Shown here: positions 55,363 to 61,181 of the stretch, piece by piece
Layout: each line of letters starts with the position of its first letter
How positions within the stretch are numbered: the stretch's first letter is position 1
Origin: Rhodanobacter sp.
GTDB taxonomy: Bacteria > Pseudomonadota > Gammaproteobacteria > Xanthomonadales > Rhodanobacteraceae
Reading direction: 5' to 3'
Assembly (NCBI GenBank): GCA_030148505.1
Contig: JASBTI010000029.1
Location: 1 to 64,000, forward strand
DNA length: 64,000 nt
Notes under the pieces: generated by a model
Told to the model about the DNA's origin: nothing
Databases searched by the model: none
What the model saw: only the letters and a program-made list of their open reading frames with translations
Translations under genes and position numbers: made by a program

Positions 55363-55631
55363 CCGGGAGTCATGGCGATCGCCTGCCAGCCGGCGTGTTA
55401 CGCAGGGGCGGGCGCCGTGGGCGGCGCCCCGATTGAACAAAAGCGGTCTCGGCTTCACGCGCAGCTGCTTGAATTTGGAAGGAACCGGGAAGGCGTGTCC
55501 CGGTTTTCCCAAAAAACGCATCGCTGGGCGAACGGCGTCTTGAGGCCGTCTAGGGCACCTTTGCCTATGATTTGCCCCGGTCGCTGAATTGCGCCAATAT
55601 GTATCGCAATTGCAGCGCATCAGGAGTTGCT

Positions 55632-55901
55632 ATGAAAACTGCGACCATTCCTTCGTTGCGGGTGGAACCGGCTCTGCGTGAGGCTGCAGAAGAGCTCTTG
55701 CGTGACGGCGAAAGTCTGTCTGGCTTTGTCGAGTCCGCGTTGCGCGCACAAATTCAGCAGCGTCAGCAGCAGGCGGCCTTCATTGCCCGTGGCCTGGCTT
55801 CGCGTGAACAGGCCAAGGCGACCGGCGTGTACTTTTCTTCTGCTGCGGTGCTGAAGAAGCTTGAAGCTCGATTGGCCAAGGCAAAGAAAGCCTCGGTATG
55901 A
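55632..55901 (+). CDS. Antitoxin-like protein of the YlcI/YnfO-CopG type
   Basis: The 89-residue protein has a ribbon-helix-helix-like N-terminus (ATIPSLRVEPALREAAEELL, then ESLSGFVESALRAQI) and a basic, partly disordered C-terminus (KKLEARLAKAKKASV) of the kind that wraps a toxin. It overlaps the ParE-like toxin gene by ATGA. CAGGAG precedes the ATG. It is likely the antitoxin and autorepressor of this pair. Confidence 0.82.
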   Translation: MKTATIPSLRVEPALREAAEELLRDGESLSGFVESALRAQIQQRQQQAAFIARGLASREQAKATGVYFSSAAVLKKLEARLAKAKKASV

Positions 55902-56206
55902 CCTTCAAGGTCCGCTTCACGGAGGAGGCGCTGGCCGACATTGAGCGGTTGTATGAGTTTGCCGTCATCCGGGACGAGGGTGACTGGGCCACGGCCGAGC
56001 GAGCATTGGAGGCTATTCGCAACGGCGTGGGTTTGTTGGGCAGTTCACCATTCAGTTGCAGAAAGGCCGTGCCCGGTAACACCTTCCTGCGCGAGTTGAT
56101 CATTGCCTTCGGCGCATCAGGCTACGTTGCGCTGTTCGAAATCGATGATGCCAAAACCGTCACCGTGCTGGCCGTACGGCATCAGCGTGAGGACGATTAT
56201 CACTGA
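55898..56206 (+). CDS. RelE/ParE-family toxin
   Basis: The 102-residue toxin-fold protein has FKVRFTEEALADIERLYEFA at the front and LRELIIAFGASGYVALFEIDDAKTVTVLAVRHQREDDY at the end, the ParE pattern in which the final strand ends RHxxEDxY. ParE members poison gyrase, while RelE members cut mRNA; the RHQREDDY tail favours ParE. The reading frame is intact and coupled to the antitoxin upstream. Remnants of another module begin about 25 nt after its stop. Confidence 0.87.
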   Translation: MTFKVRFTEEALADIERLYEFAVIRDEGDWATAERALEAIRNGVGLLGSSPFSCRKAVPGNTFLRELIIAFGASGYVALFEIDDAKTVTVLAVRHQREDDYH

Positions 56207-56230
56207 GCGGAGGCATTACCCCTTTGTGTC

Positions 56231-56362
56231 TGCCTGGCGCATCGGCCTGCTGTTCGTGTATCCCAAGGACGAACAGGTCAGCCTGACGCCCGCTCAGAAA
56301 GTGGCGCTTGGTAAAATTATCGAGCCGTGGAGGTCATCGTGGATGCCAAAAATTTTGCCAGC
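56231..56362 (+). pseudogene. Remnant of a RelE-type toxin C-terminus (copy B)
   Basis: The frame reads RIGLLFVYPKDEQVSLTPAQ, then KVALGKIIEPW, the same toxin tail as copy A at 48943. The similarity to copy A ends at 56360, immediately after the first codons of the antitoxin frame (VDAKNFA). Beyond this the sequence joins the middle of a different toxin gene. The start of the toxin is missing. Confidence 0.6.
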
Positions 56363-56614
56363 CTGCGCGATATCCGCGCCAAGGTACGGATCGCGGTACG
56401 ACTTGATCGTGTCGCCGAGGGAAACTTTGGCGACTTCTAAGCGGGTAGGCGGTGGAATCAGCGAACTACGGATCGACTAGGGACCCGGTTACCGGGTCTA
56501 CTTCATGCAACGCGGCTCGGTGCTGGTGGTGGTGCTGGTGGGTGGCGACAAGCGCAGACAGCAGATCGACATCAAGGCGGCTCAGCGCGTGGCAGCCGAG
56601 TGGGAGCGTGGATC

Positions 56615-56618
<4 letters not shown>
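56357..56618 (+). pseudogene. HigB-like (Gp49/DUF891 type) toxin pseudogene
   Basis: The text of a second toxin family is visible in pieces: LRDIRAKVRIAVRLDRVAEGNFGD, then after a frameshift near 56435 KRVGGGISELRID, a TAG stop at 56478-56480 where the family has Tyr, and GPGYRVYFMQRGSVLVVVLVGGDK to the end. The N-terminus has been replaced by the other module's sequence. Its stop overlaps the next gene's ATG (ATGA), the normal arrangement with its antitoxin. Confidence 0.72.
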
Positions 56619-58059
<1,441 letters not shown>

Positions 58060-58110: not shown

Positions 58111-58749
58111 ATGCAAGGCAAATATCTGCTCACCTTGCTGGTGGCGGCGTCGCCCTGCTGGGCAGCGGCGACAAGCCATGCCGCGTGGTACGACAACCGC
58201 AGCTTGCGAACCCACCTCGACGAGGCTATCGACGGCTTTTTTGGCCGCATGCATGGCAATTGGGTGGTGCCGCGAGGGAAATACAGGCCTCTGAAATCTA
58301 CGCGAAATCTTTCCCGCCAGTTCAAGGAGGTGTTTGATGGCGTGCCAGGGCAGAGCTACCCAACCAGCAGCGGCCACATCCTTTACAGCGGTTGCCAAGC
58401 GCACAACTGCGGTGTCGCCGCGGCGGTCCTTACCGACCCGGGCGATTCCCGCATCAATGCAGCGGCGCTTATCCATTGGAAATGCGCCGGGAAGGATCTG
58501 CCGCGCGATCGCCGGGCGGAACCGGGGACAGTTGCGCGCGCGGGTGGGTGCGATGCACCGGGTTTCCCCACGCTCACTCTCTTTTTCCGGGATAAGTCCC
58601 GCATCGATGCGGCGATGAGCCGGGATCTCCGGCAATGGGCCCGGGCCCGGTTACGCACCGACCGGCTGTTCAAGCACCTTGCAGTCGTCGTTACGACCCT
58701 TTCTCCATTCTCCAGAAACCGGCACGGAGGGAAGGCAACTCCACGCTGA
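58111..58749 (+). CDS. Secreted protein with an Ivy-like cysteine motif
   Basis: The 212-residue product has a signal peptide (about 1-24, ending SHAAW). The mature part contains a segment (about 82-125) with SGHILYSGCQAHNCGVAAAV and a later Cys in IHWKC. The CxxHxCG arrangement resembles CKPHDCG of Ivy, the periplasmic inhibitor of vertebrate lysozyme. The remaining Arg-rich C-terminal 90 residues have no match known to me and exceed Ivy's usual length (about 155), so a frameshift or unrelated fold is possible. GAAAAGGAC precedes the ATG. Confidence 0.5.
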   Translation: MQGKYLLTLLVAASPCWAAATSHAAWYDNRSLRTHLDEAIDGFFGRMHGNWVVPRGKYRPLKSTRNLSRQFKEVFDGVPGQSYPTSSGHILYSGCQAHNCGVAAAVLTDPGDSRINAAALIHWKCAGKDLPRDRRAEPGTVARAGGCDAPGFPTLTLFFRDKSRIDAAMSRDLRQWARARLRTDRLFKHLAVVVTTLSPFSRNRHGGKATPR

Positions 58750-58883
58750 TGGGTTCTGCAGGCGAATGCCCATTGCCATCAAGAGGGATTCGTAGCGCTC
58801 AAAGTGTCGAAAAACCTTACATTTTCCGGGTTTTCCGCCAAGCCATTCATAGAAAATGGAGGAAAAACGGAAGCTTGAGACAT

Positions 58884-58899
58884 TGGCATCCTACTTGCT
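58884..58899 (+). promoter_or_regulatory. Sigma-54 (-24/-12) promoter of a PEP-CTERM gene
   Basis: TGGCATCCTACTTGCT fits the RpoN consensus TGGCAY-N5-TTGCW at every fixed position, with GG and GC separated by 10 nt. It ends 93 nt before the ATG at 58993. A similar element stands before the second PEP-CTERM gene at the same distance. Confidence 0.75.
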
Positions 58900-58992
58900 T
58901 CACAAACAGTACTAAATCGTGGCAATAAGGGTTTCAGCCAAACCGATCCCTGCCTCCATCGACACGAAGCAAGCAACGCACGAGTGAGCCTG

Positions 58993-59706
58993 ATGAAAAA
59001 ATTCCTGGTACTGAGTGGTTTGGCGCTGGCGGCAGCAATGGCGATGCCTGCGCTAGCCTTCGGCTCTCCCACCACGATAAGCGCCACCATGAACCTGGAC
59101 ACGGTTTTTACCGGCAGCATTCCAGACGGTAGCGCGCCCTGGCTGACGGCGGATTTTACGTCGGACGTGGGTTCCAGCCGTGGAACACTGACATTGACTT
59201 CGCACCTGAGCGGTCCGGATTTTGTGCAGGGTTTGAGCAGCAGTAGGTCGACCATCGGTTGGGCCTTCTATCTCGATCAGGCAGTTAGCGGAAGCATCAG
59301 CTGCACCTCGGGGACCTGTGCGGACAACGCGTTGTGGAACGCGGGCGGTTTCAATAGCGGCCCGGTACGCAGCGTGTTCAATCTTGCCTTCGGCTGGTCA
59401 TCGGGCAATCGGTTCCAAAGCGGCAGTTCGGCTGTCTATGATCTTGCATTCGCCAAAGCATTGACGGGCAACCCGTTTGCGGCCAACCGAAGCGACTGGC
59501 TGTCGGTGGCGCATGTACAGGGAATTACCGGCGGTTGCAGTGGCTGGATTGTGTCGGGGTCCGGAGATGCTCAAGGTGGATCGCCCTGCACCCTGACGCC
59601 GCTGGTACCTCCGCAGACGGTGCCGGAACCTGGGGAGCTGGGCCTGTTCGGTCTTGGCCTGTTGGCGATTGGCTTGTTCGTAGGCCTGCGTCGGCGCTAC
59701 CGCTGA
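58993..59706 (+). CDS. PEP-CTERM sorting domain protein
   Basis: This exported surface or exopolysaccharide-associated protein is processed by exosortase. The 237-residue product has a signal peptide (about 1-23, ending ALAFG), a Ser/Gly/Thr-rich beta-type body with two Cys pairs (around SCTSGTC and GGCSGW...SPC), and the C-terminal sorting signal VPEPGELGLFGLGLLAIG with basic RRRYR end (210-237). It is one of two such genes here; no exosortase gene lies in the window. The ATG at 58993 is used; a GTG three codons upstream is possible. Confidence 0.88.
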   Translation: MKKFLVLSGLALAAAMAMPALAFGSPTTISATMNLDTVFTGSIPDGSAPWLTADFTSDVGSSRGTLTLTSHLSGPDFVQGLSSSRSTIGWAFYLDQAVSGSISCTSGTCADNALWNAGGFNSGPVRSVFNLAFGWSSGNRFQSGSSAVYDLAFAKALTGNPFAANRSDWLSVAHVQGITGGCSGWIVSGSGDAQGGSPCTLTPLVPPQTVPEPGELGLFGLGLLAIGLFVGLRRRYR

Positions 59707-60185
59707 GGGAATTTCTTCCCCCTTCCTCAAGGCATGGCGGCAAGATGGCGCAGGAAAGTTGATTCCTGAGTCAGGAGCGGGCTTGGTCCGACCTGTCCCC
59801 AACCCTCGATACAACCGCATAGAAGGTGAGCTTCTCCGCGTTTTCATGCGGGCGCTGGCAATGGATCGAGCAGGTTGATGCTTTGAGCGTCGGCGTGGCC
59901 CGGTGGGTGCTTCCTCCACCTTGCCGATGCTTGGCGCCCCGGCTTTCCCCTGACGTTTCTGATGGCCAAGGGTCGCTGTCGCCGCTGGAGTAGCACAAAA
60001 GACGGCAGCTACCAAAATCTCCACTTTCGAGTGGTATCGGGTAGGGATTTTGATCGGAAAACGCATCCAGTCTCGGACGCGGCGGGACGCTTGCGGCGGA
60101 GTCTGGGTCTTCGTGGAAATCGCGGAGAGGAAAAAAACGGCGAACTGGAAGTCCGCCGTTCGTATCGTTGGACTGATTTCGGACT
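59707..60185. other. Gap between the two converging PEP-CTERM genes
   Basis: These 479 bases show no recognisable gene. They hold the minus-strand terminator at 60131-60160 and the short GGGAATTTCTTCCC palindrome directly after the first gene. Confidence 0.55.
60131..60160 (-). terminator. Terminator of the minus-strand PEP-CTERM gene
   Basis: On the minus strand AACGGCG, an 11-nt loop, CGCCGTT and a T run (seven in total) follow the gene's stop by about 25 nt. Confidence 0.75.
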
Positions 60186-60782
60186 TTATGCGGACTTGCG
60201 GCGCCACGCCAGCCAGCCCATCCCCAGCAGGCCGAGTCCAAACATGGGGAGTATCGATGGCTCCGGGACGTTGTTCGAAACAACCGGCGGGGAAGAGAGG
60301 TTAATCGACTCTTCCAGGGAAAAATAGGTAAATGCCCCATCTGCAAGCCCACCCCAAAAATTCACCGTGCCTGAATCCCTGCTTGGAGAGATATTGGTGA
60401 AGTAAGCCAGGGGACCACCATAGCCGGTGTTGTCGGGATTGCCTGTGACGGGCGGCGTCACGTAGGCATTAATGCCGTCGCCCTCGAAGCCGAAGAGATT
60501 GTAGCCGCTGATATTGAACGAGTTCAGAACCTGCCCGCTATTGTTGAGCACGCCGATCAAGGCGTCATCACCACCGTCGTAGTTTGTTTGCGGCCCCGTA
60601 GAGGTGGCGATGCTCCCGCCCGATCCAAAGGTGAGCAGCAGGTTGCAGTCGCTGGCGGAGCCCGCGGACGGGCAAACGCCGAGTTGAGCCAATGTGGCCT
60701 GGGCCGGGGTGACGGCGGTCCCCAGCCAACCCGCGATGGCAAGCGTCATGGCGCGGGTAGCAAACTTTGTGAAAAATTTCAT
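60186..60782 (-). CDS. PEP-CTERM sorting domain protein
   Basis: The 198-residue exported protein has a signal peptide (about 1-29, ending PAQAT), a body rich in Gly, Asn and Ser with one Cys pair (GVCPSAGSASDCN), and the C-terminal signal VPEPSILPMFGLGLLGMG with end WRRKSA (172-198). It differs in sequence from the first PEP-CTERM protein but shares the sorting signal and the same type of promoter. GAGGGGAAC precedes the ATG. The body may form a small beta domain with LLLTFGSGGS and NSFNISGYNLFGFEG strands. Confidence 0.88.
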   Translation of the reverse strand: MKFFTKFATRAMTLAIAGWLGTAVTPAQATLAQLGVCPSAGSASDCNLLLTFGSGGSIATSTGPQTNYDGGDDALIGVLNNSGQVLNSFNISGYNLFGFEGDGINAYVTPPVTGNPDNTGYGGPLAYFTNISPSRDSGTVNFWGGLADGAFTYFSLEESINLSSPPVVSNNVPEPSILPMFGLGLLGMGWLAWRRKSA

Positions 60783-60874
60783 GGAAGTTCCCCTCTGGTC
60801 TGTGGGTGGTGTTGAAGGTGTGCCCGTTTTTTTTGCGGGATCTGCTTGCGCAACATATTGAGCACATGTCTTTC

Positions 60875-60890
60875 AGCATACTTCGTGCCA
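60875..60890 (-). promoter_or_regulatory. Sigma-54 (-24/-12) promoter of the second PEP-CTERM gene
   Basis: On the minus strand TGGCACGAAGTATGCT fits TGGCAC-N5-TTGCW with one mismatch (A for T). It ends 92 nt before the ATG at 60782, nearly the same distance as in the plus-strand gene. Confidence 0.7.
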
Positions 60891-61181
60891 TCGTTCTGGA
60901 TGCTATTTCTATCAAGGGGTTACGTTTATCCAACACCTGGTTTTGAGCGCTTTTTGTAAAGCTTTTCGACACTTCCGCGGGTTACCGTCGAGGTCTGCGC
61001 TTGGCGGCTCCCCAGTCCGTAGCAAATAGCCGTCCAGAGGGCTGAGTTGCCGGTCCACTCGGTAGTGGCGCGAGCCTGGGACCGCGCAAGCTACCGCCAC
61101 CTGCAGTCATTCAGGTGGCGCCGCACTGAGCGCCGAGGTGTCCGGGAGGACTCGGCACTCCCCTCTGCGGCTCAAGGAAAA
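60891..61181. other. Gap between PEP-CTERM and PepSY-like genes
   Basis: Nothing recognisable is seen beyond the two regulatory sites at its ends. An enhancer site for a sigma-54 activator would be expected here but was not identified. Confidence 0.45.

Follow-up and report, generated by a model that had tools for sequence, protein, structure and literature searches.

Spacing of the PEP-CTERM box in Rhodanobacter and other bacteria suggests a helix-phased sigma-54 enhancer

Haft et al. (2006) described the PEP-CTERM box, an element upstream of genes for exosortase substrates that consists of a 17-nt motif ending in TTTACA (motif 1), a spacer with a mean length of 62.8 nt (standard deviation 10.6, range 32-92) and a sigma-54 motif of the -24(GG)/-12(GC) type, the start codon following 71 nt further on average (range 23-221) (PMC1569441). 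Of 167 proteobacterial PEP-CTERM genes, 99 had the element upstream, and PrsK, PrsR and PrsT were named there from a phylogenetic profile, which points to PrsR (PMC1569441). The pepA gene of Aquincola tertiaricarbonis RN12 has a mapped transcription start, an RpoN1-dependent -24/-12 promoter and a predicted enhancer upstream (PMC9850573). In Desulfovibrio vulgaris, DNA affinity purification on chips (DAP-chip) was reported for the regulator DVUA0057 on five predicted PEP-CTERM targets (PMC3333781), and a common binding motif was reported for DVUA0057 and DVU0110 (PMC4641369). Here we analyze a 64,000-nt stretch of DNA from Rhodanobacter sp. (contig JASBTI010000029.1, positions 1 to 64,000; hereafter the window), which carries two PEP-CTERM genes, together with the genome it comes from and boxes found in other genomes. 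The window is a textbook case of the known PEP-CTERM box, and comparison across genomes suggests that the parts of this switch have to share one face of the double helix.

We put at roughly two in three the probability that the box is a tripartite, helix-phased enhancer, in which PrsR would act from one face, spacers are mostly phased, a bend of the integration host factor (IHF) type is often present in one of two registers, and the spacers measure the helical repeat. Two features, the quantised spacing and an IHF-like site at fixed positions, are new relative to the 2006 description, whereas the box itself was already known; a word search of the text of that article turned up neither helical phasing nor IHF (PMC1569441). 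Within the open PMC literature, where subscription journals are largely outside, we found neither feature reported for the PEP-CTERM box, and no paper contains both PEP-CTERM and the abbreviation IHF as whole words, although the full name of IHF does co-occur in three.

The box and its probable regulon in the Rhodanobacter genome

Upstream of each sigma-54-type promoter in the window lies a near-identical 17-mer that an earlier note on this DNA had missed, at 58805..58821 on the plus strand (TGTCGAAAAACCTTACA, gene 1) and at 60955..60971 on the minus strand (TGTCGAAAAGCTTTACA, gene 2), with gaps to the promoter of 62 and 64 nt. Judged by its sequence, this 17-mer is motif 1 of the box described in 2006, the proposed site of the RpoN activator PrsR (PMC1569441). 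We searched the draft genome (GCA_030148505.1; 3,684,554 bases, 49 contigs) with the composite pattern GTCGN7TTACA-N58-88-TGGCN8TGC and found exactly four places, all at its four PEP-CTERM genes, and none with the reversed control. Spacers of 32-92 again gave four, and a slightly stricter composite with spacers of 78-138 added none in the genome. A mismatch-tolerant search of the window and of the stretches around prsKRT, xrtA, rpoN and the two PEP-CTERM genes outside the window (contigs C25 and C26) also returned only the four. Motif 1 and promoter are likewise paired at the C25 and C26 genes, and the four spacers are nearly constant (62, 64, 63 and 74 nt). Motif 1 and the promoter are conserved, and the spacer is much diverged, at three orthologues, two of them of the C25 gene and one of gene 1 (identity at 150 of 231 residues).

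The earlier note had proposed a sigma-54-controlled exosortase-substrate regulon, to be refuted if other PEP-CTERM genes in the genome lacked the motif. All four genes have the promoter and the upstream motif, and by the pattern used the composite occurs nowhere else in the draft genome, which supports the proposal. It is the shared upstream motif that implies a regulon; the two promoter matches alone would be insufficient. We consider it very probable, from sequence, that the window genes belong to a four-gene PEP-CTERM regulon under PrsK/PrsR and RpoN.

These four genes gave the PEP-CTERM matches to PF07589 in the genome at E<=1, three of them above the cut-off. TIGR02595 returned the same four and a fifth match at C11:7482-7553 (17.1 bits, cut-off 16), which was rejected, being antisense to a long open reading frame (ORF) and away from the C-terminus; that ORF is presumably an HflK homologue. 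Contig C26, which carries the fourth gene, ends (positions 1-130 of the stretch L047) in what appears by eye to be the start of an IS3-type transposase gene.

Both 16-mer -24/-12 sites in the window were confirmed, TGGCATCCTACTTGCT at 58884..58899 (plus) and TGGCACGAAGTATGCT at 60875..60890 (minus). The mismatch counts of none and one given for them depend on the consensus: TGGCACG-N4-TTGCW yields two for gene 1 and the claimed one for gene 2, and GG-N10-GC yields the claimed zero for gene 1 and zero for gene 2 as well. Gene 1 (58993..59706, plus; 237 aa, alternative start GTG 58984) and gene 2 (60186..60782, minus; 198 aa) are convergent. Their promoters do end 93 nt (58900-58992; ATG 58993, plus) and 92 nt (60783-60874; ATG 60782, minus) before the start codon, as had been noted, but this equality is a coincidence: at the other two genes the first ATG comes after 66 and 45 nt. 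Equal distance was thus rejected as a signal, since such distances vary and show no period.

The two proteins share the sorting signal, as the note had claimed (TIGR02595 20.8 bits for gene 1 and 23.6 for gene 2, cut-off 16; PF07589 19.2, just below its cut-off of 20.7, and 29.3 bits). In the genome search the domain was placed at 59620..59697, plus, in gene 1 (TIGR02595 25.1 bits; PF07589 16.3 bits, below cut-off) and at 60195..60269, minus, in gene 2 (PF07589 33.2 bits; TIGR02595 27.6 bits). Their bodies differ: of 186 aligned residues 59 are identical, the alignment scores 28, and little is common to both except the C-terminal signal. Assignment to the PepA or THxN families was rejected, since scores fall far below the cut-offs (PepA model NF033554, 19.2 and 30.2 bits against 80; THxN model NF038125, 23.5 and 21.3 bits against 85). 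Directly upstream of gene 1, a secreted-looking 212-aa ORF (58111-58749, plus) has no weighty family match; its CQAHNC stretch resembles, as we take it, the lysozyme inhibitor Ivy. Small ORFs at 55572-56932 resemble, by eye, a ParE/RelE-type toxin with its antitoxin and a HigA-like helix-turn-helix antitoxin.

A search for the exosortase, PrsK and PrsR found all of them above curated cut-offs, and PrsT and RpoN likewise. The genes prsK, prsR and prsT are adjacent on contig C16 (TIGR02916 704.7 bits, cut-off 300; TIGR02915 665.2, cut-off 502.6; TIGR02917 599.1, cut-off 312.2), the exosortase XrtA is encoded at C25:17570-18325 (TIGR03109 283.2 bits, cut-off 208), and rpoN has a single match in the genome (contig C41, 469.8 bits). 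The four PEP-CTERM genes are spread over three contigs, and none adjoins prsT. The xanthomonad-type lineage also proved right: the 13 nearest PrsR proteins (78-91% identity) come from Rhodanobacter, Oleiagrimonas, Rhodanobacteraceae, Lysobacteraceae and Lysobacterales records or from records lacking a finer name, beyond which identity is 61% and lower. Among 147 genomes of the family the pattern matched in 27, of which nine were judged to hold true boxes because a PEP-CTERM-like ORF follows. With two of 11 genomes of the genus having a box followed by such an ORF, the regulon appears patchy by this strict pattern, which will overlook some boxes.

Quantised spacing between motif 1 and the promoter

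Spacings were examined in family, class and phylum samples. In the family sample, 19 of the 42 places listed lack GTCGR..YTTACA and do not enter the spacing counts; in the class sample (at least 150 places), seven such places were left out of the combined count and of the subset periods. Among the places listed, the 166 class and family places with a good motif 1 have spacings that cluster at 51-53, 61-65, 72-77 and 81-87, with few between clusters. In PrsR-positive class genomes, 121 of the 131 places listed lie within 2.5 bp of 63+11k, where a fraction of 5/11 is expected, and the vector strength at 11 bp is 0.717 (PrsR-positive and PrsR-negative counts use all 150 class places listed). The best period for these places is 10.98 bp, with a bootstrap mean over 54 genomes of 10.97 (10.77-11.13); a period of 10.5 is only slightly worse (0.676 vs 0.717), yet outside the bootstrap range. 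Fits to other subsets of the places listed gave 11.88 (family alone, n=23), 11.12 (class), 11.18 (phylum) and 10.90 (combined). The box spacing period agrees with the helical repeats of 10.95-11.60 fitted to LacR loops in living Escherichia coli (PMC1762422).

The phasing was retained in several subsets. One random place for each of 28 families gave a median vector strength of 0.754, and removal of the main peak left 0.65 (n=69), both among the places listed. Spacers longer than 92 bp gave 0.665 in PrsR-positive genomes (n=27) and 0.136 in PrsR-negative genomes, where the six places were not in phase. After a harsh collapse of similar spacers, by a redundancy filter that is over-strict (gapped alignment of AT-rich spacers), 51 of 53 were still in phase. 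Of the family places, 22 of the 23 whose motif 1 was good were in phase; for those with a poor motif 1 the figure was eight of 19, a chance level. The 63+11k register was derived from the class and family samples, and the phylum and long-range samples came later. In the phylum replicate, comprising 70 other places after removal of those shared with the class sample, 56 were in phase (vector strength 0.57), and an extra spacing group appeared at 43 in family f213. The promoter-to-ATG distance had no period (vector strength 0.147; 23 distances, chosen for a PEP-like-looking target).

Several genomes of family f213, which lies outside the class, share boxes whose spacers are close to 43 and 65 (L131-L147); most downstream ORFs picked there have no PEP-CTERM tail, and L137 has one. 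At G432:C468:588-736, two near copies of motif 1 stand in tandem about 22 bp apart, that is, two helical turns; repeats in R. rubrum were noted by Haft et al. (PMC1569441).

Box and PrsR tend to occur together. Among 369 class genomes, the box was found in 93 and PrsR above cut-off in 106; 75 had both, 18 the box only, 31 PrsR only and 245 neither (Fisher p 1.3e-35, uncorrected for relatedness).

An IHF-like site in fixed register, and downstream genes

IHF-like sites were scored with the consensus WATCARNNNNTTR in 170 distinct boxes (from 100 further stretches and the earlier loci), 154 of which were in phase. A site was counted as in register if it ended 17-20 nt (reverse) or 5-7 nt (forward) before TGG, the registers having been picked on the first 61 in-phase boxes. 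With at most one mismatch, 72 of the 154 in-phase boxes have a site in register, compared to 1.81 on average and 6 at most in 200 composition-preserving shuffles; with no mismatch, 26 do, compared to 0.06. The 93 in-phase boxes fetched later gave 47 (shuffled mean 1.04, maximum 5) and 17 (shuffled 0.07), respectively, and after the harsh collapse of similar spacers the site was present in 31 of 60 (vs 0.53). It was in register in three of 16 out-of-phase boxes. Matches to the 13-mer occur in both orientations, each peaking at one offset (19 and 6), and a consensus-free search recovers the site through the 5-mers TTGAT at -25 and AATCA at -19. Such a site also occurs outside the spacer: allowing up to one mismatch, it was found in 18 of 154 63-nt stretches upstream of motif 1, vs 86 of 154 spacers. 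Two of the 27 other -24/-12 matches examined in the genome have the positioned element.

Against this consensus, the four boxes of the genome have two (gene 1), zero (gene 2), one (C25) and zero (C26) mismatches. The gene 2 site, in the minus-19 register, lies at 60910..60922 on the minus strand (TAACCCCTTGATA); the candidate for gene 1, in the plus-6 register, lies at 58865..58877 on the plus strand (AAACGGAAGCTTG) and is doubtful.

Downstream of the 154 in-phase boxes we obtained 123 complete ORFs (21 ran past the end of the stretch and 10 were too short). The commonest PEP-CTERM family model, THxN, was matched by 67 of the 123, and TIGR02595 by 62 at E<=0.01. Among the remaining ORFs are those for a GGDEF protein, DUF3135, DUF5658 and a lytic transglycosylase, as well as ORFs that were probably picked wrongly. 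In genus g171 (family f145), a full box with a spacer of 61-62 precedes a gene for a GGDEF diguanylate cyclase (L108), and a box with the same spacing precedes an apparent homologue of that cyclase, judged by its N-terminus (L110). Thus, PrsR may also control cyclic di-GMP there.

Mechanism, alternatives and known systems

In the proposed mechanism, PrsK would sense a signal and phosphorylate PrsR, which would bind motif 1, a 17-nt TGT-N11-ACA element centred about 97 bp above the predicted transcription start; this start was placed 12 nt below the -12 element. From a fixed face of the helix, PrsR would contact the closed RpoN-polymerase complex at -24/-12, usually across a short loop bent in the manner of IHF, for which whole helical turns would work best. 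The polymerase would then open, and the exosortase substrate would be made and presumably sorted by XrtA. PrsR binding, its phosphorylation, RpoN dependence, IHF binding and sorting by XrtA are steps that we infer from sequence. If PrsR must lie on one face relative to the polymerase, spacers should fall mostly near 43, 52, 63, 74, 85, 96, 107 and 118 bp. For a single site lying close by, phasing this strict is plausible, because a two-site NtrC system is described as face-dependent and glnA as less so (PMC7408454).

Several observations weigh against the proposed regulon and mechanism. PrsR was not detected, by the test used, in 18 of the 93 box-bearing class genomes, and the strict box pattern is absent from 31 of the 106 PrsR-positive ones. 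In PrsR-negative class genomes, 15 of the 19 places listed are in phase, which implies that PrsR detection or specificity is incomplete; some of these genomes perhaps hold an undetected system. The reversed-pattern controls are not empty (family, 12 vs 42 places listed; class, 9 vs at least 150; phylum, 7), and the phylum replicate weakens once family f213 is set aside (29 of 39 in phase). In addition, 82 of the 154 in-phase boxes have no good IHF-like site in register, window gene 1 among the weak cases, and only 81 of the 123 downstream ORFs have a PEP-like or VPxP-like tail by regular expression. Motif 1 ends in TTTACA in three of the four boxes of the genome but in CTTACA at window gene 1, and that of the C26 gene starts with CGT.

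Chance matches of the -24/-12 sites to a short consensus are scarcely credible as an explanation. By themselves, two such matches in 64 kb are mildly unusual and weak evidence: 0.37 were expected and five of 100 window shuffles reach two, and a fuller consensus with up to two mismatches gives nine matches in the window, fewer than the shuffle figure of 15.5. One of the 39 strict matches in the genome, at C25:45408, lies within a long coding frame, which resembles that of an aldehyde dehydrogenase, and was put down to chance. However, the composite with motif 1 stands at all four PEP-CTERM genes and yields nothing in the control, and both motifs are conserved in orthologues despite largely diverged spacers. 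The reversed promoter pattern has five matches in the genome against the 39; loci were fetched for 30 of these, three of them PEP-CTERM, and none of the other 27 has the 17-mer inside 100 nt. It is also highly improbable that the promoters depend on RpoN but are driven by an NtrC-type activator other than PrsR, a reading compatible with the nine further long PrsR-model matches in the genome (other NtrC-family regulators), the box-bearing genomes without detectable PrsR and the motif common to DVUA0057 and DVU0110 in Desulfovibrio (PMC4641369). PrsR alone exceeds the equivalog cut-off in the genome, its co-occurrence with the box is strong even if uncorrected for relatedness, and the published phylogenetic profile favours it (PMC1569441).

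Shared ancestry of a few promoters, rather than a helical-face constraint, could produce quantised spacing in a sample that includes related genomes, and the f213 classes at 43 and 65, recurring in several genomes, may be orthologous promoters. We regard this as highly improbable as the general cause: the periodicity persists with one place per family, without the main peak, beyond 92 bp and after the harsh collapse, and is missing from the distance between promoter and ATG. The positioned element might instead be the site of a protein other than IHF, or a feature of DNA curvature. We think this unlikely but take it seriously, as only about half of the boxes match the IHF consensus well; the matches in both orientations with a single offset each, the de novo recovery of the site, and its presence at just two of the 27 other -24/-12 matches examined speak against it.

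Sigma-54 enhancers are often described as working from variable distances. The spacing at more than 100 natural promoters suggests that a single activator accepts mostly whole turns of the helix, with a bend site in fixed register. This makes testable the geometry with which activator and polymerase meet, the part played by IHF and the helical repeat in vivo. If the phased-enhancer reading is true, the tolerated spacers give, without an experiment, the helical repeat that enhancer DNA has in living cells, about 11 bp per turn. The window itself adds a full exosortase-substrate regulon of four genes, from a genome of Rhodanobacter type in which the predicted regulatory elements are present.

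Enhancers of NifA, XylR and NtrC combine an upstream activator site, IHF and a sigma-54 promoter, and the box resembles them in having a proposed upstream activator site and a -24/-12 promoter, with a candidate bend site between the two. Unlike the NifA site, reported as TGT-N10-ACA (PMC6296734), all four boxes here have N11, and the C26 box also has CGT for TGT. As in the system of Haft et al., this genome has PrsK, PrsR, PrsT and an exosortase, together with a 17-nt motif, spacers within 32-92, a sigma-54 motif and start distances within 23-221, although the motif of window gene 1 ends in CTTACA instead of TTTACA (PMC1569441). Like Aquincola pepA, the PEP-CTERM genes here have a -24/-12 promoter and an upstream motif, the role of RpoN being predicted from sequence; that gene adjoins prsT, whereas the genes here lie on three contigs, none beside prsT (PMC9850573), and the window proteins score far below the cut-off of the PepA model. 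The DVUA0057 regulon of D. vulgaris likewise has an NtrC-type response regulator at PEP-CTERM promoters, by DAP-chip there and by prediction here; it belongs to a distant lineage, and we noted no treatment of helical spacing there (PMC3333781, PMC4641369). Finally, the NtrC sites of glnA are described as less sensitive to helical facing (PMC7408454), whereas the spacing of the PEP-CTERM box is phased.

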